From positions 1 through 42,384 of the IMG/VR virus record IMGVR_UViG_3300025313_000045: 42,384 bases of DNA, one strand, 5' to 3'. The stretch's first letter is position 1, and each line of letters begins with the position of its first letter. The translations under genes and the position numbers were made by a program. Of the stretch, positions 1,782 through 42,384 are shown in pieces. Under the pieces are notes generated by a model. The model saw only the letters and a program-made list of their open reading frames with translations. It was not told where the DNA came from and did not search any database. Source of the DNA: a virus.

Positions 1782-1984
1782 ACATATCCTTTCAAATAAA
1801 GAGCCTCACAATTATTGCAGCGCCCCTCGTTATCCGACCAAGTTATATGACCCCCACACCAACTTCCTGTTAGATCCTCCGGGTCGTCTGAATATCTCGC
1901 TTCACATTCATTATTAATTATATCTACCGTAGTTTCCACGTCTGGCATTTCAGTACCAGATTTAATAAACATTTCAGCCTTCAT
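1778..1984 (-). CDS. 68-residue putative zinc-ribbon protein
   Basis: The C-terminal half holds C43-x2-H46 and C56-x2-C59 (WCGGH ... RCNNC), spaced as in small zinc ribbons, plus an extra C27. The N-terminal half is acidic. A Shine-Dalgarno AGAAAGG lies just upstream of the ATG at 1984, inside the preceding gene, and the two genes overlap by 11 bases. Small zinc ribbons of phages usually bind nucleic acid or a host protein; the partner is unknown here. Confidence 0.6.
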   Translation of the reverse strand: MKAEMFIKSGTEMPDVETTVDIINNECEARYSDDPEDLTGSWCGGHITWSDNEGRCNNCEALYLKGYV

Positions 1985-2147
1985 AATTTACTGCCTTTCT
2001 ATTTACATATACGTTGTAGGCTTTCTGTTCCGGTAGTACTGTGTAGGAAATATACTTGCCGTGGTAGGCTGGCAACTCATCTATCTTTGATCTAACACTA
2101 ACTAACGCTTCTTCTAGGCTTCTAAATCTATCTATTTTACTTTGCAT
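1974..2147 (-). CDS. 57-residue small early protein, unknown
   Basis: ATG at 2145-2147 is preceded by AAAGGAAGTGAAAA, a good ribosome-binding site, and the frame runs to TGA at 1974-1976. The product begins MQSKIDRFRSLEEALVS and ends in a strand-rich segment (YISYTVLPEQKAYNVYVN). It looks like a small alpha/beta protein. No family recognised. It is the first gene after a 296-base non-coding stretch and so may head its own transcript. Confidence 0.65.
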   Translation of the reverse strand: MQSKIDRFRSLEEALVSVRSKIDELPAYHGKYISYTVLPEQKAYNVYVNRKAVNYEG

Positions 2148-2443
2148 TTTTCACTTCCTTTCCTTTGATTATAAAAGCTAGGAACCTCGAGATGGTCAAC
2201 CGTTTCCGGTGTCCGGCGATCAGATTGGTTACTGATTCGGGAGCCTCTGTCTCAAGGCCCTGCAACAGCTCCCAGTCTTGGTATTACCCTTAACCAGAAG
2301 CCGGTGCAGCTAGCCTAACATCTACTCTCCTGTAGTCGAACGCTGTCCAAAATTGAGGAAACTGCCTGCCGGTGTCTCAAACCGGCTATTTATTTTTAAG
2401 TCTACAGGAGAGCAGGTGTAAGATTCTCTCTCCTTTCTCCGTT
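2148..2443 (-). ncRNA. Structured non-coding stretch (putative RNA element)
   Basis: No credible gene fits here. A perfect 11-base inverted repeat (CTCTCCTGTAG at 2325-2335 with its complement at 2402-2412) closes a domain holding a 5-bp GC hairpin (2368-2372 with 2382-2386). Its loop bases CTCAA (2376-2380) can pair with TTGAG at 2353-2357, a pseudoknot geometry. Further hairpins lie toward 2200-2300, including GGAGC/GCTCC pairs. A TATAAT on the minus strand at 2168-2173 has only a poor -35 (20-base spacing). Strand is inferred from the surrounding genes. Confidence 0.5.
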
Positions 2444-2614
2444 TTAGATATACTGTCTATTAAACAGTTCTACCCATCTGTCTCTAATCCTTCTTACCGC
2501 TATTTGCTCGGCCGCTCCATAGTTGCGTTTCTCGTAGAGTCTGTTGACTTTTTCCCTATCTGCCGGAGACGCAACGTCTAGAAACAAACCTTCTAACATT
2601 GATCCTTCTCGCAT
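2444..2614 (-). CDS. 56-residue charged helical protein
   Basis: The ATG at 2612-2614 sits 6 bases after a full AGGAGGA Shine-Dalgarno, the best in the early region, and the frame ends TAA at 2444-2446. The product begins MREGSMLEGLFLDVASP and is rich in Arg/Glu (EKVNRLYEKRN, VRRIRDRWVEL), most likely two or three helices. It is the first gene downstream of the consensus promoter at 2859-2887, with a 240-base leader, and is followed by the structured stretch 2148-2443. No family recognised. Confidence 0.65.
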   Translation of the reverse strand: MREGSMLEGLFLDVASPADREKVNRLYEKRNYGAAEQIAVRRIRDRWVELFNRQYI

Positions 2615-2852
2615 TCTGTCCTCCTTTCTCTAGGATTATCACCTAGTCGCTAGGAAGGGTTCGGCTTTGCGGGCAGTCTTCGCGAGCTATGCGTCTGATA
2701 AACCTAGGCAGCCAGTCTTCCTGCTATACCTTGCGGTTAGTAAGAGGCTTGGCTTTTGGGCTTATCGTAACAGCTAGTTTCGGACTTACCGTAGGCTTTT
2801 AGAAACCTTACCCAGCCACTAAGCGATAATCTCCTTGATCTCTAACCTTTGT
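2615..2852 (-). promoter_or_regulatory. Structured 5' leader of the early operon
   Basis: About 238 bases lie between the expected start of the promoter at 2859-2887 and the first gene, without a usable reading frame. On the minus-strand RNA, AGGAAG (2722-2717) can pair with CTTCCT (2657-2652) to close a domain. Just before the ribosome-binding site the sequence CCTAG (2654-2650), CTAGG (2646-2642), CCTAG (2634-2630) offers two mutually exclusive 5-bp hairpins. That is the arrangement of a switch or of translational control, but no known riboswitch class was recognised. Confidence 0.5.
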
Positions 2853-2858
2853 ACTTTA

Positions 2859-2887
2859 ATTATAGCATACCTTTACACATTTGTCAA
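2859..2887 (-). promoter_or_regulatory. Consensus sigma70-type promoter
   Basis: Minus strand TTGACA (2887-2882), 17-base spacer, TATAAT (2864-2859): a perfect match to the housekeeping bacterial consensus. It lies over the 3' end of the HTH gene at 2873-3034 and faces the chain of small early genes, so it is probably the main early promoter. Transcription should begin near 2852. Confidence 0.85.
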
Positions 2888-3034
2888 GTACCTATCTGAA
2901 TGGGCCAAAAAGTCATAAATTGCCTGCCTAGAAATACGTTTCTTCCTTGCTATCTCTGCGATTGGAACCCCAATTGCCTTTAATTCAAGAATTGATTTTG
3001 CCATTTTTCTATCAATCTTTTTAATTTTAGCCAT
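2873..3034 (-). CDS. 53-residue helix-turn-helix protein
   Basis: Residues about 14-45 read as a resolvase/sigma-like HTH: ELKAIGVPIAEIARKKRISR followed by QAIYDFL, with the conserved I-A-x-x-x-x-I-S-R turn. The N-terminus is very basic. It is the size of a bare DNA-binding domain with no catalytic part, so it probably acts as a regulator or as a partner of the nuclease encoded just upstream. I chose the ATG at 3034, which overlaps the upstream stop (ATGGCTAA); a TTG eight codons earlier (3058) is possible. The operon promoter overlaps its 3' end, so it could autoregulate or regulate that promoter. Confidence 0.65.
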   Translation of the reverse strand: MAKIKKIDRKMAKSILELKAIGVPIAEIARKKRISRQAIYDFLAHSDRYLTNV

Positions 3035-3359
3035 ATATTTTTGTCGCCTCGATTTCAAATTTAGAATAGCCTTTAATATTTAAGTTACCACACCAAAAGT
3101 TTCGCTTTTTAAGTTCTTTAAATGGAATCAAATATGCCTTTTTTATTTCATCGCAAAAAACTAATAACAGATCAAAGCGATTTTCCCCAGCTAATAACCA
3201 ACCAACTATAGTTCCTTTTCTAGTACCTTTAACTTCGATTCTTTTTTTCTTCCAAATTAAATCGTAGGGGGAATTATATTTCTCTACAATCTCACTACCT
3301 TGCAGTAGGTCTCTTGCTCTAAATTCACACAACTTTCCGAAATCCGAAGGTGTTAACAC
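3027..3359 (-). CDS. PD-(D/E)XK-fold nuclease-like protein
   Basis: This 110-residue protein shows E12 in the first helix, then D33 and E42-V-K44 (SPYDLIWKKKRIEVKG), the spacing of the PD-(D/E)XK active site, followed by a beta-strand-rich half. Small stand-alone members act as structure-specific or mismatch nucleases or as Holliday junction enzymes; substrate is unknown here. The GTG start at 3357-3359 is embedded in the palindrome GTGTTAACAC (3350-3359), and no good ribosome-binding site precedes it. It is followed, with overlap, by the HTH gene, which may be its partner. Confidence 0.6.
   Translation of the reverse strand: MLTPSDFGKLCEFRARDLLQGSEIVEKYNSPYDLIWKKKRIEVKGTRKGTIVGWLLAGENRFDLLLVFCDEIKKAYLIPFKELKKRNFWCGNLNIKGYSKFEIEATKIYG
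3350..3359. promoter_or_regulatory. 10-bp palindrome over a start codon
   Basis: GTGTTAACAC is a perfect palindrome and contains the GTG start of the nuclease gene. A TTGACA on the minus strand at 3379-3384 lies just upstream but has no good -10 at 16-18 bases. The arrangement would suit a repressor operator; no second copy was noticed nearby. Confidence 0.35.
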
Positions 3360-3692
3360 AATCGTATCTTAACATTTGTGTCAAGTTTAAGCAAGTAGCC
3401 ATTACTTTATCCAGAGCCACGAGGAAAGGTATCCCCGTTAAAGAGTTAAATAATTTCGATGATTTTTTTGCCGTTTTATCTCGGCTTCATCTAAGTTTGC
3501 TATCTATCAGCGGTTTTTAATACCGGAGAAAGGACGCATAGCACCAAACGTAACCCCTTCTTTTTAGTACCCATCCTTATCCATGTGCCTTTTCGGATGA
3601 GGCCCTAGTGCTTATCTGTGATGCGACACCACTAGATTTAAACCCCCTGTCGCTACTATTATATTGTTTGTTTTGAAATTAAAATGCATTAA
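3360..3692 (-). other. Non-coding stretch with a pseudoknot-like motif
   Basis: No gene was found. Structures visible: GCCT (3587-3590) with AGGC (3600-3603), whose loop GGATG (3595-3599) can pair with CATCC (3572-3576); CTAGTG (3605-3610) with CACTAG (3630-3635) enclosing GTG/CAC; and GCCG/CGGC inside GATGA/TCATC around 3460-3492. A 24-codon minus-strand frame near 3500-3575 looks accidental. The transcribed strand is not clear. Confidence 0.4.
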
Positions 3693-3767
3693 AAAGGACA
3701 CTTTCCGCGCCGTTCCGTTGCGTAAGGTGTAGGTAACCAAAACGAAACGGCCTGAAAAATGTCCTTT
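3693..3767. ncRNA. Long imperfect hairpin, putative small RNA or operator
   Basis: AAAGGACA (3693-3700) pairs with 3760-3767, then TTTC/GAAA (3702-3705 with 3754-3757), then GCCGTT/AACGGC (3709-3714 with 3746-3751). On the minus strand it is followed by a run of T (TGTCCTTTTT), so it would end like an intrinsic terminator. An AT-rich promoter-like tract (3781-3806) lies just before it on that strand, but with poor -35/-10 spacing. Confidence 0.45.
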
Positions 3768-3780
3768 CCTACTTCTACGC

Positions 3781-3806
3781 AATTATATTATATAACATAA
3801 AGTCAA
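3781..3806. other. AT-rich tract between structured elements
   Basis: Contains overlapping TATAAT-like hexamers on the minus strand (3782-3787, 3787-3792) and TTGACT (3806-3801), but spacing is only 13 or 8 bases. It could be a weak promoter or the melting site of a replication origin flanked by hairpins. Neither is proven. Confidence 0.25.
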
Positions 3807-3817
3807 GTAAAGAAAGG

Positions 3818-3982
3818 GGGCAGGAGGTTAGGTTGCCCCGCAAAGAACGCCTAACTACCTGCCCTGGTAATAGTTGAGTGGAGGAGGTGAGAGAAGATAG
3901 GGGGGGTGCCGCTAGCTCCTCTCAACCTCCACACGCCGAACAGGGCTACGAAAGTCCTATCAGCATCCCCTCCTTTCAACTA
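3818..3982 (+). ncRNA. Multibranched structured element
   Basis: A two-part hairpin (GGGCAGG 3818-3824 with 3858-3864; GTTAGG 3827-3832 with 3850-3855) is followed by a closing stem TAGTTGA (3871-3877) with TCAACTA (3976-3982). This encloses a stem GTGGAGG (3878-3884) with 3926-3932 extended by TGAGAG/CTCTCA, and a hairpin AGGGCT (3942-3947) with AGTCCT (3953-3958). The last contains a pair that is G-U on the plus strand but A-C on the minus strand, weakly favouring a plus-strand RNA. No promoter or reading frame explains it. Confidence 0.5.
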
Positions 3983-3999
3983 CAAGCCTTTCGATAACG

Positions 4000-4287
4000 C
4001 TAGTAAGAACATGTCCACTTTACGCTTTCGTCGATCCGTTGGAAGGCTTTTTCGCAGCTAATCTCTCCTCGTTTGTAATCTCTAACGGTTTCGATGATAA
4101 AATCAGCCTCACCTTTTGTTTCTGGGAATTGGTCGAGTAGATCAGTGTAACAGTCCCAGAGACAACGAGACAGTAGAGAAACTGGTACCAAAGAATCCCC
4201 CACCAAAGGTTCGTCCAGTACGATAAGGTAGTGTACCGCCACGTGGGCAAGTCTCTCAATGAACTCTTTTGAGTCAATGACACTCAC
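4000..4287 (-). CDS. 95-residue acidic protein, unknown
   Basis: A mixed hydrophobic/acidic protein with helices at both ends (KEFIERLAHVAVHYLIVLDE; FIIETVRDYKRGE) and four Cys without clear metal spacing. A GGAGGTGA ribosome-binding site lies directly before the GTG at 4287; because the spacing is short, translation may begin slightly downstream. It overlaps the upstream gene by 14 bases. A second frame at 4020-4283 is open too but reads like noise. No family recognised. Confidence 0.55.
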   Translation of the reverse strand: MSVIDSKEFIERLAHVAVHYLIVLDEPLVGDSLVPVSLLSRCLWDCYTDLLDQFPETKGEADFIIETVRDYKRGEISCEKAFQRIDESVKWTCSY

Positions 4288-4465
4288 CTCCGTACGCTAA
4301 TAGTATGTCTTTGCACTCGACAAGGCGATTCCCCACCGTGACTTCAAAAACAAGGACTTTACCGGCTGGTTTCTGCCTGACCTGCCTATCGGCAATTTCA
4401 ATATTGGCGAGGGGAAGGAAGCAGAACAACAGTCCTTTTTCAGTGATGAGTATAACGTCAACCAC
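4274..4465 (-). CDS. 63-residue beta-rich protein, unknown
   Basis: Begins GTG after GGAAGGAGACA, a good ribosome-binding site, and overlaps the next gene at its end. The sequence alternates hydrophobic residues (VDVILITEKGLLFCFLPL; KVLVFEVTVGNRLVECKD), suggesting a small beta barrel or sheet. No motif recognised; it travels with the 95-residue gene downstream. Confidence 0.55.
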   Translation of the reverse strand: MVDVILITEKGLLFCFLPLANIEIADRQVRQKPAGKVLVFEVTVGNRLVECKDILLAYGGECH

Positions 4466-4495
4466 TGTCTCCTTCCTTTCTGATCAAACTCTCGA

Positions 4496-4777
4496 TTAAG
4501 TTATTATTTCCCACCCTTTTCGTAATACCTTAATCCAAAGTTCGATTCCTTCCATATACTCCCGTTTGTATTTCTTTAAATCCTTTTCTTCACAGGTCTT
4601 TACCTGTACAAGTCTCGCTATCCAATGGTAATCCCCACAACCGAGTGGTTTGACGGCTATTAGATCAGCCCTACCGTGGCTACCGGCTGTCCTAAATACC
4701 TCGAAACCCTCTCCCTCTAAAAGTTCTTTGGCTTCTCTCTCTGCTTTAGCCCCTCTAATGTAATACTTGTTTGGCAC
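4496..4777 (-). CDS. Hjc-like Holliday junction resolvase / PD-(D/E)XK nuclease
   Basis: A 93-residue protein with the Hjc-type layout: basic RGAKAERE start with E13, GFEVFRTAGSHGRADLIAV with D38, then LVQVK with K60. In archaeal-type Holliday junction resolvases and related VRR-like nucleases these positions bind metal and cut branched DNA. The usual E of the E-x-K pair is a Gln here, as in some relatives. In a phage with an annealing protein such an enzyme would resolve branched replication intermediates before packaging. GTG start at 4777 with AAGGAG about 9 bases upstream. Confidence 0.7.
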   Translation of the reverse strand: MPNKYYIRGAKAEREAKELLEGEGFEVFRTAGSHGRADLIAVKPLGCGDYHWIARLVQVKTCEEKDLKKYKREYMEGIELWIKVLRKGWEIIT

Positions 4778-4934
4778 GGCGCAGTCTCCTTATTTCTTTC
4801 ACAAGAACATCAGGATTACTTGCATCCCGATCCACGATGAATACATTAGAAGTATCGATACCAACAGACCGAAAATAATCGCCAAGGTCAGCAGGTACCT
4901 TAGAAATTGTTCTTTCCGCTTCTTTTGCCCCCAC
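4755..4934 (-). CDS. 59-residue small protein upstream of the resolvase
   Basis: From GTG at 4932-4934 to TAG at 4755-4757, overlapping the resolvase start by 23 bases. The product has a protein-like composition: SVGIDTSNVFIVDRDASNPD then a basic helix (LVKEIRRLRRAKQ). The resolvase ribosome-binding site lies inside it, consistent with coupling. Its own ribosome-binding site is weak (TAGGGT). A competing frame (4799-4936) would encode a hydrophobic 45-residue peptide; I prefer this one on codon and residue content. Confidence 0.45.
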   Translation of the reverse strand: MGAKEAERTISKVPADLGDYFRSVGIDTSNVFIVDRDASNPDVLVKEIRRLRRAKQVLH

Positions 4935-5017
4935 ACCCTAAATAATATACCTAACCTAGCAAGCGATGCAACAGCTCGTAGCAGCGAATGAAGAGACGGA
5001 GAATATACATCCGTAGG

Positions 5018-5515
5018 TTATACATATTTAGAGCAAGTCCAGGGGCTCCAAGACTGCCAGGTATAGAGCAAATAAGCGTAGTCTATATTGGATTTCCACT
5101 GGTACATAGAGTCCCAAGTGAAACCATGTTTGGTCATGCTGTAAGCATGAACCGGATGTATCTGGAAAATACCTCGTTCACCTGCGGAACCAGTAGCGTA
5201 TTGATTTAATCCACTTTCACATTGGGCAACACGAACGGCATACTCACTGCCAAACTTGGAACGGATATAATTGGCTATTGTTTCTTTTCCCACAGGAACA
5301 GTAGCCGCTTGGGTAACTTGGGGAGTTGGGGGAGAACTAGCTATTGCGGTTTTTCTCGGAGCCGAGGATTTGGCTTTCGAGATTTTCAATTGTTTCATGT
5401 CCTGCTGTAAATTCTCGATCTCTTGCTCTACCTTCTGTAACTGCTTCTCTTGCGTTCTTTGCCTACTCTCGCTGCCTTCTTTGTGAAACAGAGTGAACAA
5501 CAGCAGAACAATCAC
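5018..5515 (-). CDS. Membrane-anchored lysozyme-like transglycosylase
   Basis: The product has an N-terminal hydrophobic anchor, a Gln/Glu/Lys-rich coiled coil (about residues 17-50), a Ser/Pro/Thr linker, and a C-terminal transglycosylase-like domain: VAQCESGLNQYATG with catalytic-type E100, then GIFQIHP. It should cleave peptidoglycan glycan strands, either during DNA entry or at lysis. The GTG at 5515 is the only in-frame start, yet the frame stays open for 27 codons further upstream and reads like protein (basic RRLW before the anchor), up to an AGGAGG at about 5591-5596. The ATG after that site is one base out of frame, so a missing base, a frameshift or a non-canonical start is likely. 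Confidence 0.75.
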   Translation of the reverse strand: MIVLLLFTLFHKEGSESRQRTQEKQLQKVEQEIENLQQDMKQLKISKAKSSAPRKTAIASSPPTPQVTQAATVPVGKETIANYIRSKFGSEYAVRVAQCESGLNQYATGSAGERGIFQIHPVHAYSMTKHGFTWDSMYQWKSNIDYAYLLYTWQSWSPWTCSKYV

Positions 5516-5580
5516 TACTAGGGCTAACCAAAGTCTCCTAGTAGATTGGTCGCCTTTTACAATAAGGCGTTGGTTCCTTT

Positions 5581-5596
5581 CATCATATTGCCTCCT
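5581..5596 (-). promoter_or_regulatory. Strong ribosome-binding site and out-of-frame ATGATG
   Basis: AGGAGGCAAT then ATG (5586-5584) is a textbook initiation site, but this frame closes after nine codons (MMKGTNALL then TAA). The lysozyme frame is offset by one base and has no start codon between here and 5515. The site therefore most likely belongs to the lysozyme gene. Confidence 0.55.
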
Positions 5597-5710
5597 TTAC
5601 GGATCGCTAATGATTTAATGAACTTAGGGTTAAAGACCCTAGCGGGAGTTAGGCAGGCTACTGATAAACTCCCGTCAGTTTCTTTTACCACCAAGAAACT
5701 TAGTATATAA
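5597..5710 (-). promoter_or_regulatory. Hairpin-rich leader of the lysozyme transcript
   Basis: Three inverted repeats stand in a row on the minus strand: AGTTTCTT with AAGAAACT (8 bp, around 5679-5702), GGGAGTT with AACTCCC (around 5640-5670), and TAGGGT with ACCCTA (around 5624-5643). ACTGA/TCAGT offers an alternative pairing that would break the second. No T-run follows, so they are not simple terminators; an RNA leader is the better reading. Confidence 0.4.
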
Positions 5711-5720
5711 TAACATAGTG

Positions 5721-5762
5721 CAGCAAAAAGTACGACTTTTATAAAAAACGTACGGTGCTGCG
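5721..5762. repeat. Large inverted repeat between divergent genes
   Basis: GCAGCA and GTACG on the left pair with CGTAC and TGCTGC on the right, around an AT-only centre (ACTTTTATAAAAAA). It lies midway between the plus-strand acidic gene and the minus-strand lysozyme transcript, a natural position for a shared operator or cruciform. Confidence 0.5.
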
Positions 5763-5800
5763 TACTATTATTTTGAACCTAGAAATGGGGTGATATAGCA

Positions 5801-5929
5801 ATGTTTGACGATGAAAAGGAACCAGTAGTTGAGGAGGTCGAAAACGGCGATACTCAAGAAGATAAAGAAACTGAAGAAGGCGACGAACCAGAAGAAAAGG
5901 CCGAAACAGAAGAGGGTATTGTTGGTTAA
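5801..5929 (+). CDS. 42-residue highly acidic protein
   Basis: One of only two credible plus-strand genes. ATG at 5801 follows GGGGTGATATAGCA, a usable ribosome-binding site, and the frame ends TAA at 5927-5929. About half of the residues are Asp or Glu (VVEEVENGDTQEDKETEEGD), with no hydrophobic core, so the product is probably disordered. Small acidic phage proteins often mimic DNA or bind basic host proteins, such as restriction enzymes, nucleoid proteins or RNA polymerase parts; that role is inference. A strong terminator follows at 5969-6003. Confidence 0.6.
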   Translation: MFDDEKEPVVEEVENGDTQEDKETEEGDEPEEKAETEEGIVG

Positions 5930-5968
5930 TAGTATGTTATAATACAATTACATTTTTCACTTCCTTTG

Positions 5969-6003
5969 GAAAACTCCACCTGACCAGATTCGGTGGAGTT
6001 TTC
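5969..6003. terminator. Bidirectional intrinsic terminator
   Basis: A perfect 12-bp stem (GAAAACTCCACC at 5969-5980 with its complement at 5992-6003) around an 11-base loop, with T-rich ends on both strands. It ends the plus-strand acidic gene and, on the other strand, the late/lysis operon after the holin gene. Confidence 0.9.
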
Positions 6004-6081
6004 TAGTTAATAGAATTTTTATATAAAGTAAGAGACCGCCAAACTAGCTCCTATTAGCGGCCTCGTTACTCCGGCGTTTGA

Positions 6082-6324
6082 TTATTTCTTCACTGCTTCT
6101 ACTATACGAACGCTTCCCGCACTAAAAGCTCCAAGAACCGCACCTAATGTTGGTGAGATCCCATTTACACCTTCCACACCTATAAATCCAATAATAAAGC
6201 CTACCGCGGCAGCTACAACAATCGTTAGCTCACCCGAAATCTTAAAACCAAGTTTACCTGCCGCTCTTTTAACAAACTCTGTAACTGCTACTACTACACC
6301 AGTAAATATTACTTCTGGGGTCAT
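6082..6324 (-). CDS. Putative holin
   Basis: An 80-residue protein with two hydrophobic segments (about residues 5-18 and 33-52, the latter IVVAAAVGFIIGFIG) joined by a basic turn (FVKRAAGKLGFK), and a C-terminal amphipathic part ending VEAVKK. Size, two-helix layout and position next to the endolysin match class II-type holins, which open the inner membrane at lysis. It has one of the strongest ribosome-binding sites in the window (GGAGGAGGTG). A terminator follows. Confidence 0.7.
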   Translation of the reverse strand: MTPEVIFTGVVVAVTEFVKRAAGKLGFKISGELTIVVAAAVGFIIGFIGVEGVNGISPTLGAVLGAFSAGSVRIVEAVKK

Positions 6325-7533: not shown

Positions 7534-8103
7534 TTAACTCTTTGTCCCCCATGCTATCCAAGAATAACCATAGTAAATAGAAGCCGAAAAGTTACCTGTA
7601 TTTCTTGCGTAAGTTACATTGAAGTTACTGGTCGTGATATCTGATGCAGAAACACTCCAACCTGCACCACCGCCTTCTTCGGTATCCAAACCAGTTATGG
7701 CCGATGCTGCTGGAGTACTTTTAGCTGCGGTTAAACTAACAACTACTCCTAATATAGTTCCGAATGCAGTAGGAAATGTAACAGTCTCCTGCATTGAAGT
7801 CGCCGCTACTCCTATTATCTGACCCCAACCTAATTGAAGTAATATATTTTCACTTGTGGCGCTTGCTATCGAATCAGAATTATCGGTTTGAGTACGAACT
7901 TGGGAAAGACGTAGGATATCATCAGTGGCTAGTTTTATTAAATCTTTGGCACTACCGCCAGCTTGTGCCGCTTGAATAGCCTGATTATTATTTATTAATA
8001 TACCAGTCCCATCTCTTAAAGAGGCATCGTTTGCTCCTAAAATATTCCATTTTGAGCTGGAAGGCGTTTCTCCGAAGATCACACTCCACACACTATAAGC
8101 CAA
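7534..8103 (-). CDS. Tail fibre / receptor-binding tip protein
   Basis: This 189-residue protein is Ser/Thr/Ala-rich, beta-structured, and ends in YYGYSWIAWGTKS, the aromatic 'SWIAxGT' end found on many phage tail fibre and baseplate tip proteins. The middle (VGVAATS... TVTFPTAFG) resembles the beta-sandwich that precedes such ends. It probably contacts the host surface. Start is TTG at 8103, 6 bases after AGAAAGGCGG; it overlaps the HNH gene by 11 bases. Confidence 0.6.
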   Translation of the reverse strand: MAYSVWSVIFGETPSSSKWNILGANDASLRDGTGILINNNQAIQAAQAGGSAKDLIKLATDDILRLSQVRTQTDNSDSIASATSENILLQLGWGQIIGVAATSMQETVTFPTAFGTILGVVVSLTAAKSTPAASAITGLDTEEGGGAGWSVSASDITTSNFNVTYARNTGNFSASIYYGYSWIAWGTKS

Positions 8104-8653: not shown

Positions 8654-9090
8654 ATCTGTAACTTCTCAATAATAAAATTATCTACCTCAATTGTACCACC
8701 TTTTCCTATATATTTCGCAGGTTTCTTTTGTAAGTTTTGATAAACTCTATCTAAATCTTCTTTGGTGGGAACTAACTCGGTGATAATTCCATCTTCTGCT
8801 TCGGCTAATCTGCTATCATTCATACACGCGCACTGGAAACCCATCTGCCCATCTAATCTTGGTCGACTACCAAGCAACCCAGAAACCAATTTGCCTTGTT
8901 TATTAAAAGTTGTTTGTTCTTCTATCTGACCATCATTATAAATATAGGCAATAACTTTACCGGCACATGATTTGGAGAGACACCGAACCTGTTTAACTAT
9001 TTTGCCATTGGCTATATTGGCTAACTTTTCTCTTAGCTTAGGATCAGTAACTTGAGCGATCATATTATTTAAGGCCACCTCGTTAATCAT
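8650..9090 (-). CDS. 146-residue protein with a putative zinc knuckle
   Basis: Helical N-terminus (residues 1-30), then a beta-rich part with C37-x4-C42 and C87-x-C89, which could form a metal site, and a C-terminal Lys-rich helix and strand. Lying between receptor-binding genes it may be a tail accessory or chaperone, but the cysteines are unusual for a virion protein. No family recognised. ATG start at 9090 with little ribosome-binding site. Confidence 0.55.
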   Translation of the reverse strand: MINEVALNNMIAQVTDPKLREKLANIANGKIVKQVRCLSKSCAGKVIAYIYNDGQIEEQTTFNKQGKLVSGLLGSRPRLDGQMGFQCACMNDSRLAEAEDGIITELVPTKEDLDRVYQNLQKKPAKYIGKGGTIEVDNFIIEKLQI

Positions 9091-9117
9091 TTGACAATAT
9101 ACCCTACAATATACTTG

Positions 9118-9297
9118 ATGAAGTACCTACTAGTTATCGCCTTTATTTTATCAGGTTTGTTTATCTTTAGTCCAACAAACCACCAAAAACCTAGTTATCA
9201 AGAACCGAGTATTCGAGAAGTCTGTTATTGGATTATTTCCCAACCACCTTTAATTAAAACTTATAAAGGTTTCGTTATCAAGAATTGTTTATACTAA
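9118..9297 (+). CDS. 59-residue plus-strand protein with signal/membrane segment
   Basis: Starts ATG at 9118 and ends TAA at 9297, overlapping the end of the opposite gene by 9 bases. Residues 1-18 (MKYLLVIAFILSGLFIF) are a clear signal peptide or single anchor; the remainder has two Cys (EVCYWI ... IKNC), so one disulphide is possible. There is no ribosome-binding site, but TACAAT at 9105-9110 lies 7 bases before the ATG, compatible with a leaderless mRNA. Placed against the direction of all neighbours, it looks like a moron-type gene, perhaps a surface or superinfection protein (inference). Confidence 0.55.
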   Translation: MKYLLVIAFILSGLFIFSPTNHQKPSYQEPSIREVCYWIISQPPLIKTYKGFVIKNCLY

Positions 9298-10089
9298 AGC
9301 ATTTTCAAATAAGACTATCTCAAAAGTAATTATTGTATCAGAAGTTCCTAAATTTCTAACGTAGGCAGTAATATTTTCGTCATCGCTATAAACTCTCAAA
9401 TCAACTTCTGGCGCAGAAGTAAAAGCGTAAGGTATATTTAGCAGATTAGTATTTACATCCCCGCTAGCCATTGCTGTAAAGGCCGGGGAGTACCCTAAAC
9501 CATGACCAACACTAATTATAGTTTCTGTGCCAATTGTAGGAACTGTAACTGGAATTGATTTTATTATGCTTGGCTTGTAAGTATCCGCCATAATGAAAAC
9601 TTGTTTGTCATCGTCATCATCGATATCGTAGCCGGATTGAGATATCCTTAACCCAAAACCAGTAGCGCTATTATTTCCCGCTCCTCCAAGTTTAGCCAAA
9701 TCAGCCAATATCATATAATAAAAATCGTGGGTTCTAGCAGTGTCTCCTTCCGAATAGATAGTTAAATTATTTGTATCAACTGTTACCCACCAGTCAACTA
9801 AATCAGCATAAGTATCGCCATCAAAATTGTACCTACCTTTATGGGCGTGCCATTTAGTTGTTCCGCTAGGCTTAAAAAATAAATCATAACTTGGTACAAA
9901 ACCCAAACCATGAGAGATTATTGTTTTACCAGTTGGGGTAGTAGCATAAGGAGTGCTGTTAGTAATTTGCCCACTACCTTCAAGAATAATTTTGGGTGAA
10001 TTATCCTCTGACGATATTACTAAATCCTGCCCTGTAGCTGTACGAGCATCCTTAGTTTCTTTTGATACTTTAAATCCATAGGCTGTCAT
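9289..10089 (-). CDS. Tail protein, paralogue of the next gene
   Basis: A 266-residue beta-rich protein. Its first 35 residues (MTAYGFKVSKETKDARTATG and onward) closely resemble those of the 10086-10508 product (MTQYGIKISKSNFDARTAAN), then both repeat a motif of type ISHGLGFVPS. In this protein the GLGxxPS motif appears twice (residues about 58-65 and 195-205), suggesting two tandem beta-sandwich domains. Position next to the tail hub suggests fibre or tip subunits. ATGA-type overlap with the neighbour at 10086-10089. Confidence 0.6.
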   Translation of the reverse strand: MTAYGFKVSKETKDARTATGQDLVISSEDNSPKIILEGSGQITNSTPYATTPTGKTIISHGLGFVPSYDLFFKPSGTTKWHAHKGRYNFDGDTYADLVDWWVTVDTNNLTIYSEGDTARTHDFYYMILADLAKLGGAGNNSATGFGLRISQSGYDIDDDDDKQVFIMADTYKPSIIKSIPVTVPTIGTETIISVGHGLGYSPAFTAMASGDVNTNLLNIPYAFTSAPEVDLRVYSDDENITAYVRNLGTSDTIITFEIVLFENALV

Positions 10090-20394: not shown

Positions 20395-20735
20395 ATCACG
20401 CCATCAACAATAGATATGTATAAATTGGTTGCCTGCGGTGCTGTTTGCGGTTTGTTTCCTGTGAGCCAAACAATACCAAATTCGGCTATATAATCACCAA
20501 TAGTATTGGTATCACCGGAGGCCCAAGTATAAGAAATAGTGCCGGCTGGCTTTGAAACAAAAGCTCCGGCGGCAGCATTTATTTTTAAAGTTCCTGTATA
20601 TTGGTTCCTCATTGAAAAGGAAATAGTCGAAGCATTAGTTAAATCGACTACAACATCATCTTCATCTTTAACCGTTGCCGTAATTATTGGTAGTAAATCG
20701 TTTTGCTTAATAACAATTCTATTAGCCATCGCCAT
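20391..20735 (-). CDS. BppU-like baseplate/fibre N-terminal domain protein
   Basis: 114 residues with IVIKQNDLLPIITATVKDED, VDLTNASTISFSMRNQ and TWASGDTNTIGDYIAEFGI, the all-beta pattern of the BppU N-terminal fold seen in phage baseplate and fibre proteins. Here it is free-standing rather than joined to a long fibre. It probably forms the base on which the repeat proteins sit (inference). Overlaps the Com-like gene by ATGA. Confidence 0.6.
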   Translation of the reverse strand: MAMANRIVIKQNDLLPIITATVKDEDDVVVDLTNASTISFSMRNQYTGTLKINAAAGAFVSKPAGTISYTWASGDTNTIGDYIAEFGIVWLTGNKPQTAPQATNLYISIVDGVI

Positions 20736-22746
20736 CCTTTAATTCAAGTATAACACTATTACTAGTTATTTTATAATCGTTATTGCCTGACTCTGTAATT
20801 GTCTCAAGAGTTCCCGATTCTAATTTTAGATCGGGGCGTGAATAAATTTCCTGAATATTGGCTGCAAGTATTCTCGATAAACCCAAAAGCGTTTGATTGG
20901 TAACAATCGTAATTCTGGATTTTCCGAGGATTAACCTTAATACATCAACTTCAAAAGTTATATTAGCTTTACCTAGAATAGTTTGTATAGTAGTAGCACT
21001 TATATTAGCTAAACCTTGGATTGTTTGGGTAGTCAAAGCCGTAATTCTGCCAAGACCACTAATAATTTGATTAGAAACTATGGTAATCCTTGCCAAACCA
21101 ATAATGATTTGACTACCTGATATGGTAATCCTTGTCAATCCTTGGATGGTTTGGATAGTGGTAGCAATAATTCTAGATTTACCCAGAATGGTTTGATTGG
21201 TAGAGATGGTAATTCGTGCAATACCCAATATTGTTTGGCCTGTGCTAATCGTTATTCTAGAAATACCTTGAATTATTTGCGATGCCAACTTAGTTATTCT
21301 CGCTATACCCAGAATTGTTTTTGTAGTAGTTGCGGTGATTCTAGACAACCCTTGAATAATTTGGCTAGAAGTCGCGGTGATTCTAGATATACCAAGTATA
21401 ATTTGTGAGGAAGTTATAGTAACTCTGGATAAACCAAGAATGGTTTGTGTCGTAGTTTTAAGAATCGAGGCTTTACCTAATAAGTTTTGTATAGATGTTG
21501 TAGTAATTCTTGCAAGACCTTGTATGGTTTGCGTAAAAGTATTAACAATCGTTGAAATACCCTGAATAGTTTGAGTAGTGGTTTTTAATATATCAGCCCT
21601 ACCTAGTAAGGTTTGATTAATTACGCGTGTTATACGGGAAAGTCCGAGGATGATTTTAGTTGTAATTATTGTTATCCGAGAGAGGCCTAATATAGTTTGT
21701 CCTACGAGATTTGTAATCCTCGAAAGTCCTAATATGGTCTGGAAAGCACTTTTTTCTATACGGCCTAGACCTAATATGGTCTGTATAGTAATAGTAGTAA
21801 TTCGTGCTAGACCCAAGATCGTTTGTAACGATGTAGTAACTATTTGAGATAATCCTAATATGGTTTGAGAAACCGTAATAGTAATTCTGGATAAACCAGG
21901 TATTGTCTGTAAGGCTGTAGCTGTTATTCGGGATAATCCTTGAATGGTTTGACTGGTGGAAATAGTAATTCGGGAAAGACCAAGAATGTTTTGAGAAGCA
22001 GACTTCAATATATCTGCTAATCCAAGTATTGTTTTTGTAGTAGTGGTGGTTACTCTTGCCAATCCTTGAATGGTTTGGGTTGTATCCTTAGCAATACGGG
22101 CTAGTCCCTGGATTGTTTTGGTAGTAGTAATGTCAGATACTTGTTTAAACGAGGCGGCCGCTACTGTCCACTCCCCATCTGGGCCTGACCAATTTATTGC
22201 TTGATTAGTTGCCGTAGTTTGTATTGCATAAGAGGCACCATTTACCCAAGACCCATCATCGTTATTAAATAAAGCAGTTTCTCCTGTACCTGTTGTAGGG
22301 GCTGGCGAAGCATCCCTAACTACAACACCACCTATTATTAGTTCGTTATCTTGAGTAGGAGTTAAACTAACTGTTTGAGCATTTGAATCTCCTATTGCAC
22401 TATTATGCTGATCTTTAGGTGAAGTCTGGACAACACCTTCGTAAGTTGAAACTATCGTTCTTATCTCTCCACCAAAATCTGCTGAAAGAGTATTGGCTCC
22501 AGTAGGAGGATTGACTAAAAACCAAATAGAAACCGCGTGTTCCCAAACGCCAGTGTCGTTATATCTACTGACTGCCTCTGTGAGTGCCTGGCCTCCATAA
22601 GAAACATTACTAACAGTATGATTACCACTTTCCATACCAAGAAACACCACGCCCAAAAGGGAATTATTTGAGGCGTTGTTGGTAAAGCTAAAACTTACAT
22701 TACCGTCTACTAAATTTTGGGCCTTTTCAACAAAAGTAATAGCCAT
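20722..22746 (-). CDS. Fibre protein with about 30 copies of a 14-residue repeat
   Basis: 674 residues. Residues 1-208 form a beta-sandwich domain with Trp-rich motifs (TGVWEHAVSIWFLVNPP; DGSWVNGASYAIQ), like lectin-type domains of phage and bacterial surface proteins. Residues 209-630 are about 30 tandem 14-residue repeats of the type SQTILGLSRITATT, with the Gly at position 6 present in every copy. A 44-residue acidic tail follows. Nucleotide copies have drifted although the residue pattern holds, so the array is old and selected. Likely an elongated virion fibre; it precedes the BppU-like gene. Confidence 0.7.
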   Translation of the reverse strand: MAITFVEKAQNLVDGNVSFSFTNNASNNSLLGVVFLGMESGNHTVSNVSYGGQALTEAVSRYNDTGVWEHAVSIWFLVNPPTGANTLSADFGGEIRTIVSTYEGVVQTSPKDQHNSAIGDSNAQTVSLTPTQDNELIIGGVVVRDASPAPTTGTGETALFNNDDGSWVNGASYAIQTTATNQAINWSGPDGEWTVAAASFKQVSDITTTKTIQGLARIAKDTTQTIQGLARVTTTTTKTILGLADILKSASQNILGLSRITISTSQTIQGLSRITATALQTIPGLSRITITVSQTILGLSQIVTTSLQTILGLARITTITIQTILGLGRIEKSAFQTILGLSRITNLVGQTILGLSRITIITTKIILGLSRITRVINQTLLGRADILKTTTQTIQGISTIVNTFTQTIQGLARITTTSIQNLLGKASILKTTTQTILGLSRVTITSSQIILGISRITATSSQIIQGLSRITATTTKTILGIARITKLASQIIQGISRITISTGQTILGIARITISTNQTILGKSRIIATTIQTIQGLTRITISGSQIIIGLARITIVSNQIISGLGRITALTTQTIQGLANISATTIQTILGKANITFEVDVLRLILGKSRITIVTNQTLLGLSRILAANIQEIYSRPDLKLESGTLETITESGNNDYKITSNSVILELKDGDG
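20857..22122 (-). repeat. 42-bp protein-coding tandem repeat array (about 30 units)
   Basis: Encodes residues 209-630 of the 674-residue protein. Consensus unit is Thr/Ser-Gln-Thr-Ile-Leu-Gly-Leu-Ser/Ala-Arg-Ile-Thr plus three small residues. One unit is 16 residues long (near the end). Confidence 0.9.
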
Positions 22747-24881
22747 TAATGTTTCCCCTCTTCTTTAACATCTATATTGCCATCGTCAACTTCGATATTT
22801 CTATTGCCAGATATAAATTCAATATCTGGATTTAAATTACCTTGTTCGGCAATATTATCTCCATCGGTTAATTGAGATAACCGGGTTCCTAATTCTATAT
22901 TTGTTGCCTCGGTAGCAAGAATAGTATTTATATTTCTATTAAAAGTAGGATCTGGTATATCGGCAATAACTCTGGCAAGGCCAGTGATATTTTGCAGGGT
23001 AGTTGCTTTAATATCAGCAATACCAAGTAAGGTTTGAAGTGTAGAGACTGTAATACGCGCTTTCCCCAGTATTGTTTTAAGGGTAACTACTTGAACCCGG
23101 GCAATTCCTAGTATAGTTTGAGTTGTAGTTTTCTTTATAGCCGCTAAACCAAGAATTAATTGGGTTGTACTTCCGGTTATTTTAGCTACTCCAAGAATAG
23201 TTTGAATACTAACTAAAGCGATTCTGGAAAGCCCTGTAATCGTCTGTAAGACAGTTTTCTCTATCCTCGATATACCTAATAGGGTTCTTGTCGTGGTTGT
23301 CGCTATATTTGCTAATCCTAAAATGGTTTGCAAAGTACTGGCAGTAATACGGGATTTTCCTAGTATCGTCTGAGCTGTACTGATAGTTATTCGTGCCAGA
23401 CCTAATATGGTTCTGGAAGTAGTAACTGTGATTCTCGCCAAGCCTTGTATTATTTGAGTTGTGGTAGAAGTAATTCGAGCAAGTCCTAAGATCGTCTTGG
23501 TAGCAGTTACGGTTGTGGTTATATTAGCGACACCTAAGATTGTCTTAGTTGTACTGGCCGTTACTCTTGCCAAGCCTAGAATAGTATTTGTTGTGGAAAT
23601 AGTGATACGTGCAAACCCCTGTAAGGTCTGTAGAGCGCTTTTCTCTAGTCTAGCTAGTCCCAATATAGTCTTTGTAGTTGAGGCTGTGAGACGACTTATA
23701 CCTAAAATCGTTCTGGTAGTAATCGCTGTAATCCTCGCTAAACCATTTATAGTTTGGTTTACTACTATTTGTATCCGAGATTTACCTAGTATTGTTTGCG
23801 TTGTACTAATCGTTATCCGCGAAATACCTTGAATTGTCTGGGTAACCGTTCTAAGTATTGAAGCCTTACCTAGAATACTCTGCGTAACACTCGCTGTAAT
23901 TCTAGCTAAACCTAAAACTGTCTTAGTAGTACTTGCAGTTATTCGTGATAATCCTTGAATGGTTTGACTAGCTGAGGCGGTTACTCTTGATAAACCCTGG
24001 ATAGTTTTTGTAGTTAGAATAGTAATCCTTGCCTTACCAGTGATAGTTTGAAGTGTTGTTGCAGTGATACGAGCCAACCCCAGAATCGTCTGAGAGGTGG
24101 TTACGAGTATTGCTGCCTTACCCAATATAGTTTGTACAGAAGTAGCTGTTATTCGAGCCAGTCCTAAAATCGTTTTTGTAGAGGAGGTGGTTATTCGAGA
24201 TATACCTTGGATCGTCTGTGCAGTTATAAGAGCAATACGAGAAATACCAAGAATAGTTTGAGTAACAACTTGCTGTATTCGTGAAATACCGAGTATCGTT
24301 CTGGCAGTAGTAACCGTTATGCGGGCAAGCCCTAATATAGTCTGTACTGTAGAAGCGGTAACTCTTGCTTTTCCTACAATAGTTTGAACTGTAGCTACGG
24401 TGATCCTGGCAAGACCATCTATGGTTCTGCTAACTGTTTTTAATATAGCGGCTTTACCTAAGATCGTTTGGAGTGTAGTTGAAGTTATCCTTGAAATACC
24501 AAGTATCGTTTGAGTAGTCGAAGCGGTAATCCTAGATAGACCTAAAATGGTCTGTAGAGTACTAATAGTAACTCTTGAAAGTCCTTGTATGGTCTGTGAA
24601 GAGGTTATTTGTATTCTAGCCAACCCAAGTATTGTCTGTGCCGTAGTGGCAGTTATACGGGCTAGGCCGAGTATCGTTTTATTAGTAGAGGCGGTTACTC
24701 TAGCTAAGCCGAGGATTGTTTGGGAAGCTACGGCAGTAATTCTAGCTTTACCTAAAACGGTCTGTAATACCGTTACTGTTATTCTTGCCAAACCTTGAAT
24801 AGTTTGACTAGAGGTGGCTACGCCACCAGCTCTGGTACTTTGACCAAAGAATATACGACCAAAGAAATTGGCTCCGAACAT
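22746..24881 (-). CDS. Giant repeat fibre protein with 44 copies of a 14-residue repeat
   Basis: 711 residues. The first 24 (MFGANFFGRIFFGQ and on) are Phe/Gly-rich and may anchor the protein. Then 44 repeats (about residues 25-642) of type TKTILGLARITATT, all keeping Gly at position 6; unit 31 is two residues longer. A 69-residue acidic C-terminus follows. Periodic beta-turn-like repeats of this kind suggest a beta-solenoid or coiled fibre. The gene lies between portal and protease with other decoration-type genes, so it could be a head fibre rather than a tail fibre. A TATAAT (24888-24893) six bases before the ATG suggests a leaderless transcript. Confidence 0.7.
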   Translation of the reverse strand: MFGANFFGRIFFGQSTRAGGVATSSQTIQGLARITVTVLQTVLGKARITAVASQTILGLARVTASTNKTILGLARITATTAQTILGLARIQITSSQTIQGLSRVTISTLQTILGLSRITASTTQTILGISRITSTTLQTILGKAAILKTVSRTIDGLARITVATVQTIVGKARVTASTVQTILGLARITVTTARTILGISRIQQVVTQTILGISRIALITAQTIQGISRITTSSTKTILGLARITATSVQTILGKAAILVTTSQTILGLARITATTLQTITGKARITILTTKTIQGLSRVTASASQTIQGLSRITASTTKTVLGLARITASVTQSILGKASILRTVTQTIQGISRITISTTQTILGKSRIQIVVNQTINGLARITAITTRTILGISRLTASTTKTILGLARLEKSALQTLQGFARITISTTNTILGLARVTASTTKTILGVANITTTVTATKTILGLARITSTTTQIIQGLARITVTTSRTILGLARITISTAQTILGKSRITASTLQTILGLANIATTTTRTLLGISRIEKTVLQTITGLSRIALVSIQTILGVAKITGSTTQLILGLAAIKKTTTQTILGIARVQVVTLKTILGKARITVSTLQTLLGIADIKATTLQNITGLARVIADIPDPTFNRNINTILATEATNIELGTRLSQLTDGDNIAEQGNLNPDIEFISGNRNIEVDDGNIDVKEEGKH
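22956..24809 (-). repeat. 42-bp protein-coding tandem repeat array (44 units)
   Basis: Encodes residues 25-642. Two-residue variants recur in a patterned way: K at position 7 with A/S-R or A-A next (GKARI, GKAAI), L at position 7 with A-R (GLARI), and I with S-R (GISRI). Codons differ between units, so recent expansion is unlikely. Confidence 0.9.
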
Positions 24882-41063: not shown

Positions 41064-41228
41064 TTAATTAATAGGTAATAATATATACCACTCAATCACT
41101 ATTGCTAGCCAGAAAACCAATCCAATAAAAAATCCTATTATTAGGCCTAGTAAAAACCTAGTCCGTTTGTTTTCGGCTATAGCCATATCCTGAGCAATTT
41201 CGCGGATTAGTTTGTCTATATAAGTCAT
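41064..41228 (-). CDS. 54-residue single-pass membrane protein
   Basis: From the ATG at 41226-41228, which overlaps the upstream TGA as ATGA. Residues 1-22 are charged (MTYIDKLIREIAQDMA...), 23-46 form one or two hydrophobic spans (RFLLGLIIGFFIGLVFWLAI). The longer upstream frame (to 41336) is not needed. Small membrane proteins of phage early regions often modify host membrane or exclude other phages; role unknown. Confidence 0.65.
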   Translation of the reverse strand: MTYIDKLIREIAQDMAIAENKRTRFLLGLIIGFFIGLVFWLAIVIEWYILLPIN

Positions 41229-41500
41229 ATTAGTCTGCCTTGACCCCTCTCCTCCATCTCCTTTGTCTGTTCTAATTTCCTTTTTGCTTGCCACGATTGT
41301 TTCACCGGTCTGGTATTTTCCAAAACATATTTCCAAACATTATCCTTTACCCTTATAGTTTTAATATTGTAACCATCCTCCCTAAGCTCATCTAATCTTG
41401 CCTTATAATTTAAAATAAAGTGCTGTGGGAACTCGTAGTTTTTTATTCCTTCCCGACCTCTTTCATTTAGCAAGGCAACAATGGTTTGTTTTTGTGTCAT
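41225..41500 (-). CDS. HTH-like small protein, second allele
   Basis: Same 91-residue protein as 9-284; residue 16 is Arg instead of Pro and a Glu replaces Asp near the C-terminus. All overlaps with neighbours are kept. Confidence 0.7.
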   Translation of the reverse strand: MTQKQTIVALLNERGREGIKNYEFPQHFILNYKARLDELREDGYNIKTIRVKDNVWKYVLENTRPVKQSWQAKRKLEQTKEMEERGQGRLI

Positions 41501-41580
41501 TTTTTCCTTTCTAGTTTCTTAAACCGCCTGATCCAATTCTTAAAATGCCTAGTCCCCCGATAATAAATTCTTGGTTTCAT
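41497..41580 (-). CDS. 27-residue coupled protein, second allele
   Basis: Same frame, start and stop as 281-364, with a single Lys-to-Arg change (WIRRF instead of WIKRF). ATGA overlaps are preserved on both sides. Confidence 0.6.
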   Translation of the reverse strand: MKPRIYYRGTRHFKNWIRRFKKLERKK

Positions 41581-42104
41581 AATCCAGCCTCTTTTAGATA
41601 GCACATACAGGTTTCCATAGGATCAATCTCTATCTTCCAAAGCCCGCATTCTTTATGTCTATATATTTTTGGCATTACCTTGAATATCCCGAAGCCATCG
41701 TTTGCCTTTGTCTCGGCTACTTCGTGTTCTAGATCGCTTTTACTAAGCTGCTTGGCTTTCTCCAACCACTCACCGCGCTGTTCCGGTGCCGAATCTAAAA
41801 CGCTATGCTTTATTAACAGCAGCTTTTCATAGGAAACATCGGCAATCTCTTTTGGCGCAAATCCTAGCTTCTCGCAGTAAGTCTCATATAGATCGCTAAA
41901 TCTATACAAAGCCGATTGGCTATAACTAAAACCGGCGAGGTATTCCCTAAAGGTTTCGTAACCCAATGTCTGCCAATAAGCTCTCTTCCAGTTTTCGTAA
42001 AGAAGTTGCCCCAAGAATACCCACCGTTGGTTTACCTCGTTTACTATCTCAACAATCATCTCGTGGTTTTTATGCGCCTCGGCTACTAGCAGGTTGTTTG
42101 TCAT
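41577..42104 (-). CDS. 175-residue early protein, second allele
   Basis: Second allele of 361-888; N at residue 4 and A at residue 8 are the only residue differences found among about 30 base changes. Confidence 0.7.
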   Translation of the reverse strand: MTNNLLVAEAHKNHEMIVEIVNEVNQRWVFLGQLLYENWKRAYWQTLGYETFREYLAGFSYSQSALYRFSDLYETYCEKLGFAPKEIADVSYEKLLLIKHSVLDSAPEQRGEWLEKAKQLSKSDLEHEVAETKANDGFGIFKVMPKIYRHKECGLWKIEIDPMETCMCYLKEAGL

Positions 42105-42115
42105 TTTTCTAGTTA

Positions 42116-42268
42116 CTATAATTTGTCTAATTTGTTTTTAAAGTAATCTATCAACTTCTCGATCGTGGCGTTGTAGTAGTCGTCAAATTCCTTTTTCGTG
42201 CTTTGCTTTTCCCAAAGACGGTAGATAACCGCCCTAAGTCTTTGGCTTGGTGTCTTCTTTATTTCCAT
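42116..42268 (-). CDS. 50-residue helical protein, second allele
   Basis: Second allele of 900-1052: frame and length kept, with conservative changes only (E/D, G/A, F/L). Confidence 0.6.
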   Translation of the reverse strand: MEIKKTPSQRLRAVIYRLWEKQSTKKEFDDYYNATIEKLIDYFKNKLDKL

Positions 42269-42384
42269 TTGATGCCGTTTTAAAGCTCTGTATCCTCTTT
42301 AATATTCCCCGTTTTTCTTCTACCTCAAGACCCTTAAAGTCCTCGCTCTCTACAATCTCATTTATATCGTTGTAATTGGTAGCC
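42234..42384 (-). CDS. Annealase C-terminus, second allele (truncated by window edge)
   Basis: The 3' end of the ERF/Rad52-like gene, identical in sequence over its last visible part to 1018-1168 apart from a few changes near the stop. The 5' part lies beyond the window and, on the circular reading, is the sequence at 1169-1590. Confidence 0.7.
   Translation of the reverse strand, partial: ATNYNDINEIVESEDFKGLEVEEKRGILKRIQSFKTASNGNKEDTKPKT

Follow-up and report, generated by a model that had tools for sequence, protein, structure and literature searches.

In plasmid pT181, the repC leader can form a terminator stem that holds the ribosome-binding site, unless a pre-emptor within the leader keeps that stem from forming (PMC5703833). 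In phage P4, replication genes are silenced by premature transcription termination (PMC4825925). Here we describe a structured, gene-free block in the virus record IMGVR_UViG_3300025313_000045, which was analysed over its full length of 42,384 bases (the window). Judged by analogy, its layout matches a transcription attenuator that precedes a replication gene, and pT181 repC is the closest parallel.

The likeness to pT181 repC and pIP501 repR lies in a terminator-like stem just before a replication gene, with the ribosome site inside it (as seen in L015, a relative of the window), and in a leader segment whose pairing would block the terminator (PMC5703833). The plasmid pre-emptors, however, target the terminator's 5′ arm, whereas here the leader would pair mainly with the loop; moreover, an antisense RNA sets the balance in the plasmids (PMC5703833), but no convincing antisense promoter was found here. 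P4 immunity (CI RNA, seqA and seqC) and IsrK of Gifsy-1 are comparable in that replication or early genes are blocked by termination in the leader via RNA–RNA pairing (PMC4825925); at the present locus, in contrast, no separate CI-like RNA and no Rfam match were found, and there is one hairpin with its own leader. The put RNA of HK022 likewise lies shortly downstream of an early phage promoter and acts on termination, but it binds RNA polymerase and prevents termination (PMC9378689), whereas the element described here itself ends as a terminator.

Genomic setting, stability and strand preference of the block

Every recognisable gene of the window (terminase, portal, major head protein, tape measure, tail and lysis genes) is carried by the minus strand. 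The block (3693–3982) has the lysis genes on one side and a recombination gene (1590–1018) on the other. The two ends of the window overlap by 1,168 bases (1–1168 and 41217–42384; 95.5% identity), which is probably a circular overlap joined from two strains, and the sequence of L015 is continuous across this junction; the genome is therefore probably nearly complete and circularly permuted. Elsewhere in the window, the minus strand of 20722–24881 encodes two large proteins (674 and 711 amino acids) without family matches, contains many internal DNA repeats and is where the GC skew goes positive. Downstream of the major head protein gene, a near-perfect promoter (TTGACA-17-TAGAAT; 17853–17808, minus strand) has a small terminator-like hairpin right behind it.

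The first-pass annotation had described the block as a three-part hairpin, an AT-only tract, a two-part hairpin and a multiloop, one after the other and without any gene. These elements were indeed found in that succession and at the coordinates given, the multiloop being a three-way one, and the block holds no open reading frame of at least 60 amino acids; by inspection, it contains very short frames only, none with a well-placed ribosome site. Folding energies were then compared with those of dinucleotide shuffles (z-scores). The region 3650–4000 folds with −130.5 kcal on the minus strand (z = −6.8) versus −109.5 kcal on the plus strand (z = −3.45), and the first hairpin (3690–3776) with −38.3 kcal (z = −6.8) versus −26.7 kcal (z = −3.55). 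The stretch 3812–3990 also is more stable than its shuffles, with z = −4.2 on the minus and −4.0 on the plus strand. When both strands were scanned in segments of 120 nt, the lowest G+C-corrected energy of the entire sequence fell on the hairpin region. Counting G–U pairs per strand provides a way to test plus-strand or origin readings: there are 6 on the minus strand and none on the plus strand in the first hairpin, and 6 versus 2 in the multiloop (3982–3871, minus strand; −51.1 kcal, versus −46.8 kcal on the plus strand). The first-pass annotation had argued for a plus-strand RNA, and this argument is reversed because both fold energies and G–U pairs favour the minus strand.

Covariance model searches gave no Rfam family for the block: none of the 4227 families of Rfam 15 matched within the window at gathering scores, and relaxing the threshold to E-values up to 5 over 1900–6200 yielded only two chance snoRNA matches, both outside the block. 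ARAGORN reported no tRNA or tmRNA. The DNA of the block has no similarity to annotated phages and plasmids, an exact 22-base pattern of the hairpin has no match in IMG/VR, and other IMG/VR contigs whose portal protein is 100% identical showed no meaningful match to the 2180–6100 region. The best reading of the block is a non-coding regulatory RNA; therefore, of the two options initially offered, non-coding RNA or replication origin, the RNA half survives, on the opposite strand, and the origin half is not supported.

A promoter-like site followed by a terminator-like hairpin

The AT-only tract corresponds to a minus-strand promoter-like site (TTTACT-18-TATAAT, 3811–3782) with a sigma-70-like score of 10/12, a class of sites that is no commoner in the window than in shuffles (52 versus 48). 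A second, overlapping TATAAT can be read from the sequence at 3792–3787 (minus strand). Transcripts are predicted to start around 3775 from the former TATAAT or around 3780 from the latter. An antisense promoter was also sought: the only candidate was a plus-strand site (9/12, 3637–3665), which was no better than chance, such sites being equally common in shuffles, and none was seen in L015.

About 10 nt past the likely start begins a terminator-like hairpin (3769–3691, minus strand; z = −6.8), in which 27 pairs form two helices with a 2 × 2 internal loop and a 21-nt terminal loop, and which is closed by U5 at 3695–3691. In a scan of 1.08 Mb for hairpins that have a T-rich tail, it ranks first by number of pairs; the hairpin of L015 also appears in that list. 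Two segments of the leader are complementary to the hairpin's own loop: a1 (TTGCGTA, 3776–3782) to 3724–3718 (TACGCAA), and a2 (GTAGG, 3768–3772) to 3733–3729 (CCTAC), all on the minus strand. When exact complementarity between leader and loop was assessed by dinucleotide shuffling of the leader, the 7 + 5 bp of the window were equalled by 534 of 20 000 shuffles. Folding of the growing chain (truncated RNAs folded at equilibrium, which does not model kinetics) showed a weak first stage only, with −14.2 kcal at 66 nt, which was soon lost. Leader–loop pairing in the window's own unit is only suggestive.

The stems on the other side of the promoter-like site look like a structured 3′ terminus that belongs to the operon before it. 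The multiloop begins ∼18 nt past the stop codon of the gene at 4287–4000 (minus strand) and would be its structured 3′ UTR; no counterpart was seen in L015. The G+C-rich two-part hairpin (3818–3864, minus strand), just upstream of the promoter-like site and followed by CCUUUCUUUACUU, is without strand preference (3815–3867; −27.3 kcal minus, −27.4 kcal plus) and may serve the upstream operon as an insulator or a weak terminator. On the downstream side, a non-coding stretch of ∼330 nt (3360–3690, minus strand) separates the terminator-like hairpin from the next gene (3359–3027), possibly a PDDEXK-type nuclease as judged by inspection only. This stretch yielded no trace of the replication gene of L015.

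Comparable units in related phages

Searches with the recombination protein retrieved one distinct close relative only, in the form of three near-identical contigs (L015, L016 and L017, mutual identity 99.9% or more); the L015 protein is 66–70% identical to that of the window. Another 36 distant loci from genome contigs have little in common with the early region of the window apart from the recombination protein. Several of the nearest (L031, L033, L035 and L037) sit in Patescibacteria assemblies, which is a hint only as to the host group.

In L015, a unit arranged as in the window occupies a comparable position, flanked by the lysis genes and the recombination gene. It consists of a promoter-like site (TTGACA-17-TATATT, 7844–7872) and a hairpin of 22 pairs ending in U6 (7900–7971). 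Right after the hairpin comes an ATG (7975), and the protein that it begins matches DnaD-like helicase loaders (PHROG 2514, E = 7e-18); its Shine-Dalgarno-like GAGGG lies within the terminator arm. Leader and loop share two perfect complements (9 + 8 bp; 1 of 20 000 dinucleotide shuffles), and the growing chain folds first into a1:a1′ (−19.8 kcal at 60 nt), then into a2:a2′ (−33.1 kcal at 84–90 nt) and finally into the terminator (−39.1 kcal at 96 nt). The a1 pairing is kept between the two phages (TTGCGTA/TACGCAA in the window, TTGCGGAA/TTCCGCAA in L015) with one compensatory change. Aligned along their length, the units of the two phages are weakly similar (11 of 500 shuffles did as well), with ATTGCG-GAAGTA and the loop CGCAA in common.

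A distant phage, L090, presents the elements in the same order upstream of a gene homologous to the L015 replication gene. It is without a good promoter; its leader–loop complementarity amounts to 9 + 7 bp (22 of 20 000 shuffles) and its growing-chain folds are similar to those of L015 (−18.3, −27.1 and −41.6 kcal). A motif of the replication-gene protein identified 46 loci, and a hairpin precedes the gene in 2 of the 44 checked, L015 and L090. Among the matches listed for 209 large-loop hairpins in 1.56 Mb, these two also are the only ones with two loop-complementary segments of at least 7 bp. Further hairpins with loop complementarity were looked at in L101, L055 and L079; that of L101 is an ordinary terminator that can pair in either of two ways. 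Mutually exclusive antiterminator pairing is clear in L015, likely in L090 and suggestive only in the window. The pairing hypothesis arose from the window and L015 and was tested on the same sequences, L090 being the sole independent case. Covariation statistics would need more cases than a single close relative and a single distant phage.

Proposed mechanism and alternative explanations

Our leading explanation, which we would put at about even, is that the block carries a minus-strand control unit where the early region begins, either a transcription attenuator or a source of a short terminated RNA. RNA polymerase would start at 3780–3775 and produce a short leader, then the long terminator hairpin. 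Before the 3′ arm is made, the leader could pair with the loop (a1:a1′, a2:a2′), enclosing the 5′ arm of the hairpin; once the 3′ arm has been made, the terminator would win unless the leader–loop structure holds. The outcome would be an attenuator that lets some early transcripts pass, or a terminated RNA of ∼85–90 nt. The transcription, termination and switching in this scheme, and any trans-acting partner, are what we infer from the layout. As expected of an attenuator, a terminator hairpin with a U-tract stands between promoter and gene, directly before the gene in L015 and after 330 nt in the window. Against it, the window has no replication gene downstream, a poor −35 (TTTACT) and a weak antiterminator. 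Since a regulated gene is not evident in the window, two alternatives stay credible, a stand-alone short RNA and a relic.

The stand-alone RNA would consist of the promoter and a hairpin RNA of 85–90 nt with its own terminator, acting in trans on RNA of the phage or the host, and leader–loop pairing would be incidental. The 330 gene-free nucleotides downstream and the highly stable hairpin with U5 agree with it, but the units of L015 and L090 directly precede the replication gene and the GAGGG of L015 is inside the terminator arm, which points to cis control; we regard this reading as possible though not probable. An ordinary boundary between operons, made of the terminators of the upstream unit and a promoter, without switching, would account for the weak leader–loop complementarity of the window itself, and terminators and promoters are to be expected between modules. 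Yet the 27-bp hairpin sits downstream of the promoter and therefore would stop that promoter's own transcript, and L015 and L090 share the layout, so that a mere boundary appears unlikely.

The same inverted segments could instead act in DNA, as operator half-sites for a phage repressor such as the HTH protein encoded nearby (3034–2873). The candidate half-sites, TTGCGTA/TACGCAA in the window and TTGCGGAA/TTCCGCAA and TGTCACACT/AGTGTGACA in L015, overlap the promoter start, but they are not alike between the phages and the strong G–U asymmetry of the hairpin points to RNA; we consider operator control very improbable. Even harder to credit is a replication origin with an AT-rich melting site. 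It would fit a gene-free stretch in which hairpins adjoin an AT tract, as well as the replication gene beside the unit of L015. However, no iterons were found at the block, the AT tract is better explained as a promoter-like site, G–U asymmetry is meaningless in DNA, and the GC skew, put forward as a check for an origin, has no turning point at the block. The remark that the phage has no recognised initiator holds for the window, where no DnaD-like gene was found; L015 has one directly after its unit.

Within the control-unit explanation, a more specific proposal, which we advance as doubtful, is a new type of phage attenuator whose leader carries two segments that match, by complementarity, two segments of the terminator's own loop, the pairs crossing in the order a1 a2 b a1′ a2′ b′. 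The growing RNA would then fold through two successive antiterminators before terminating, and so act as a timer on phage replication genes. The crossing order is seen in L015 and L090; the copy in the window would be simpler, or decayed. If the control-unit explanation is right, it would add RNA-based control of early or replication genes for tailed phages known only from metagenomes, with a logic similar to that of plasmid copy-number attenuators and P4 immunity.

Other structured stretches near the block

On the minus strand at 2887–2612, a perfect extended promoter (TTGACA-17-TATAAT with TG, 12/12) leads into a structured stretch of leader, ∼240 nt long, and then a ribosome site ahead of a 56-amino-acid gene, and L015 has the same arrangement at 9049–9241. 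Both ends of the leader are conserved between the two (77–78% identity, equalled by 0 of 500 shuffles) and in each phage form a long stem with one another, while the interior differs; this leader is possibly a better RNA candidate than the block. A structured, gene-free stretch lies at 2440–2150 (minus strand), and L015 is structured at the same place (9430–9590) with little sequence similarity. Finally, between the lysis genes and the transglycosylase, a structured leader with a ribosome site precedes a short frame (5740–5600, minus strand).
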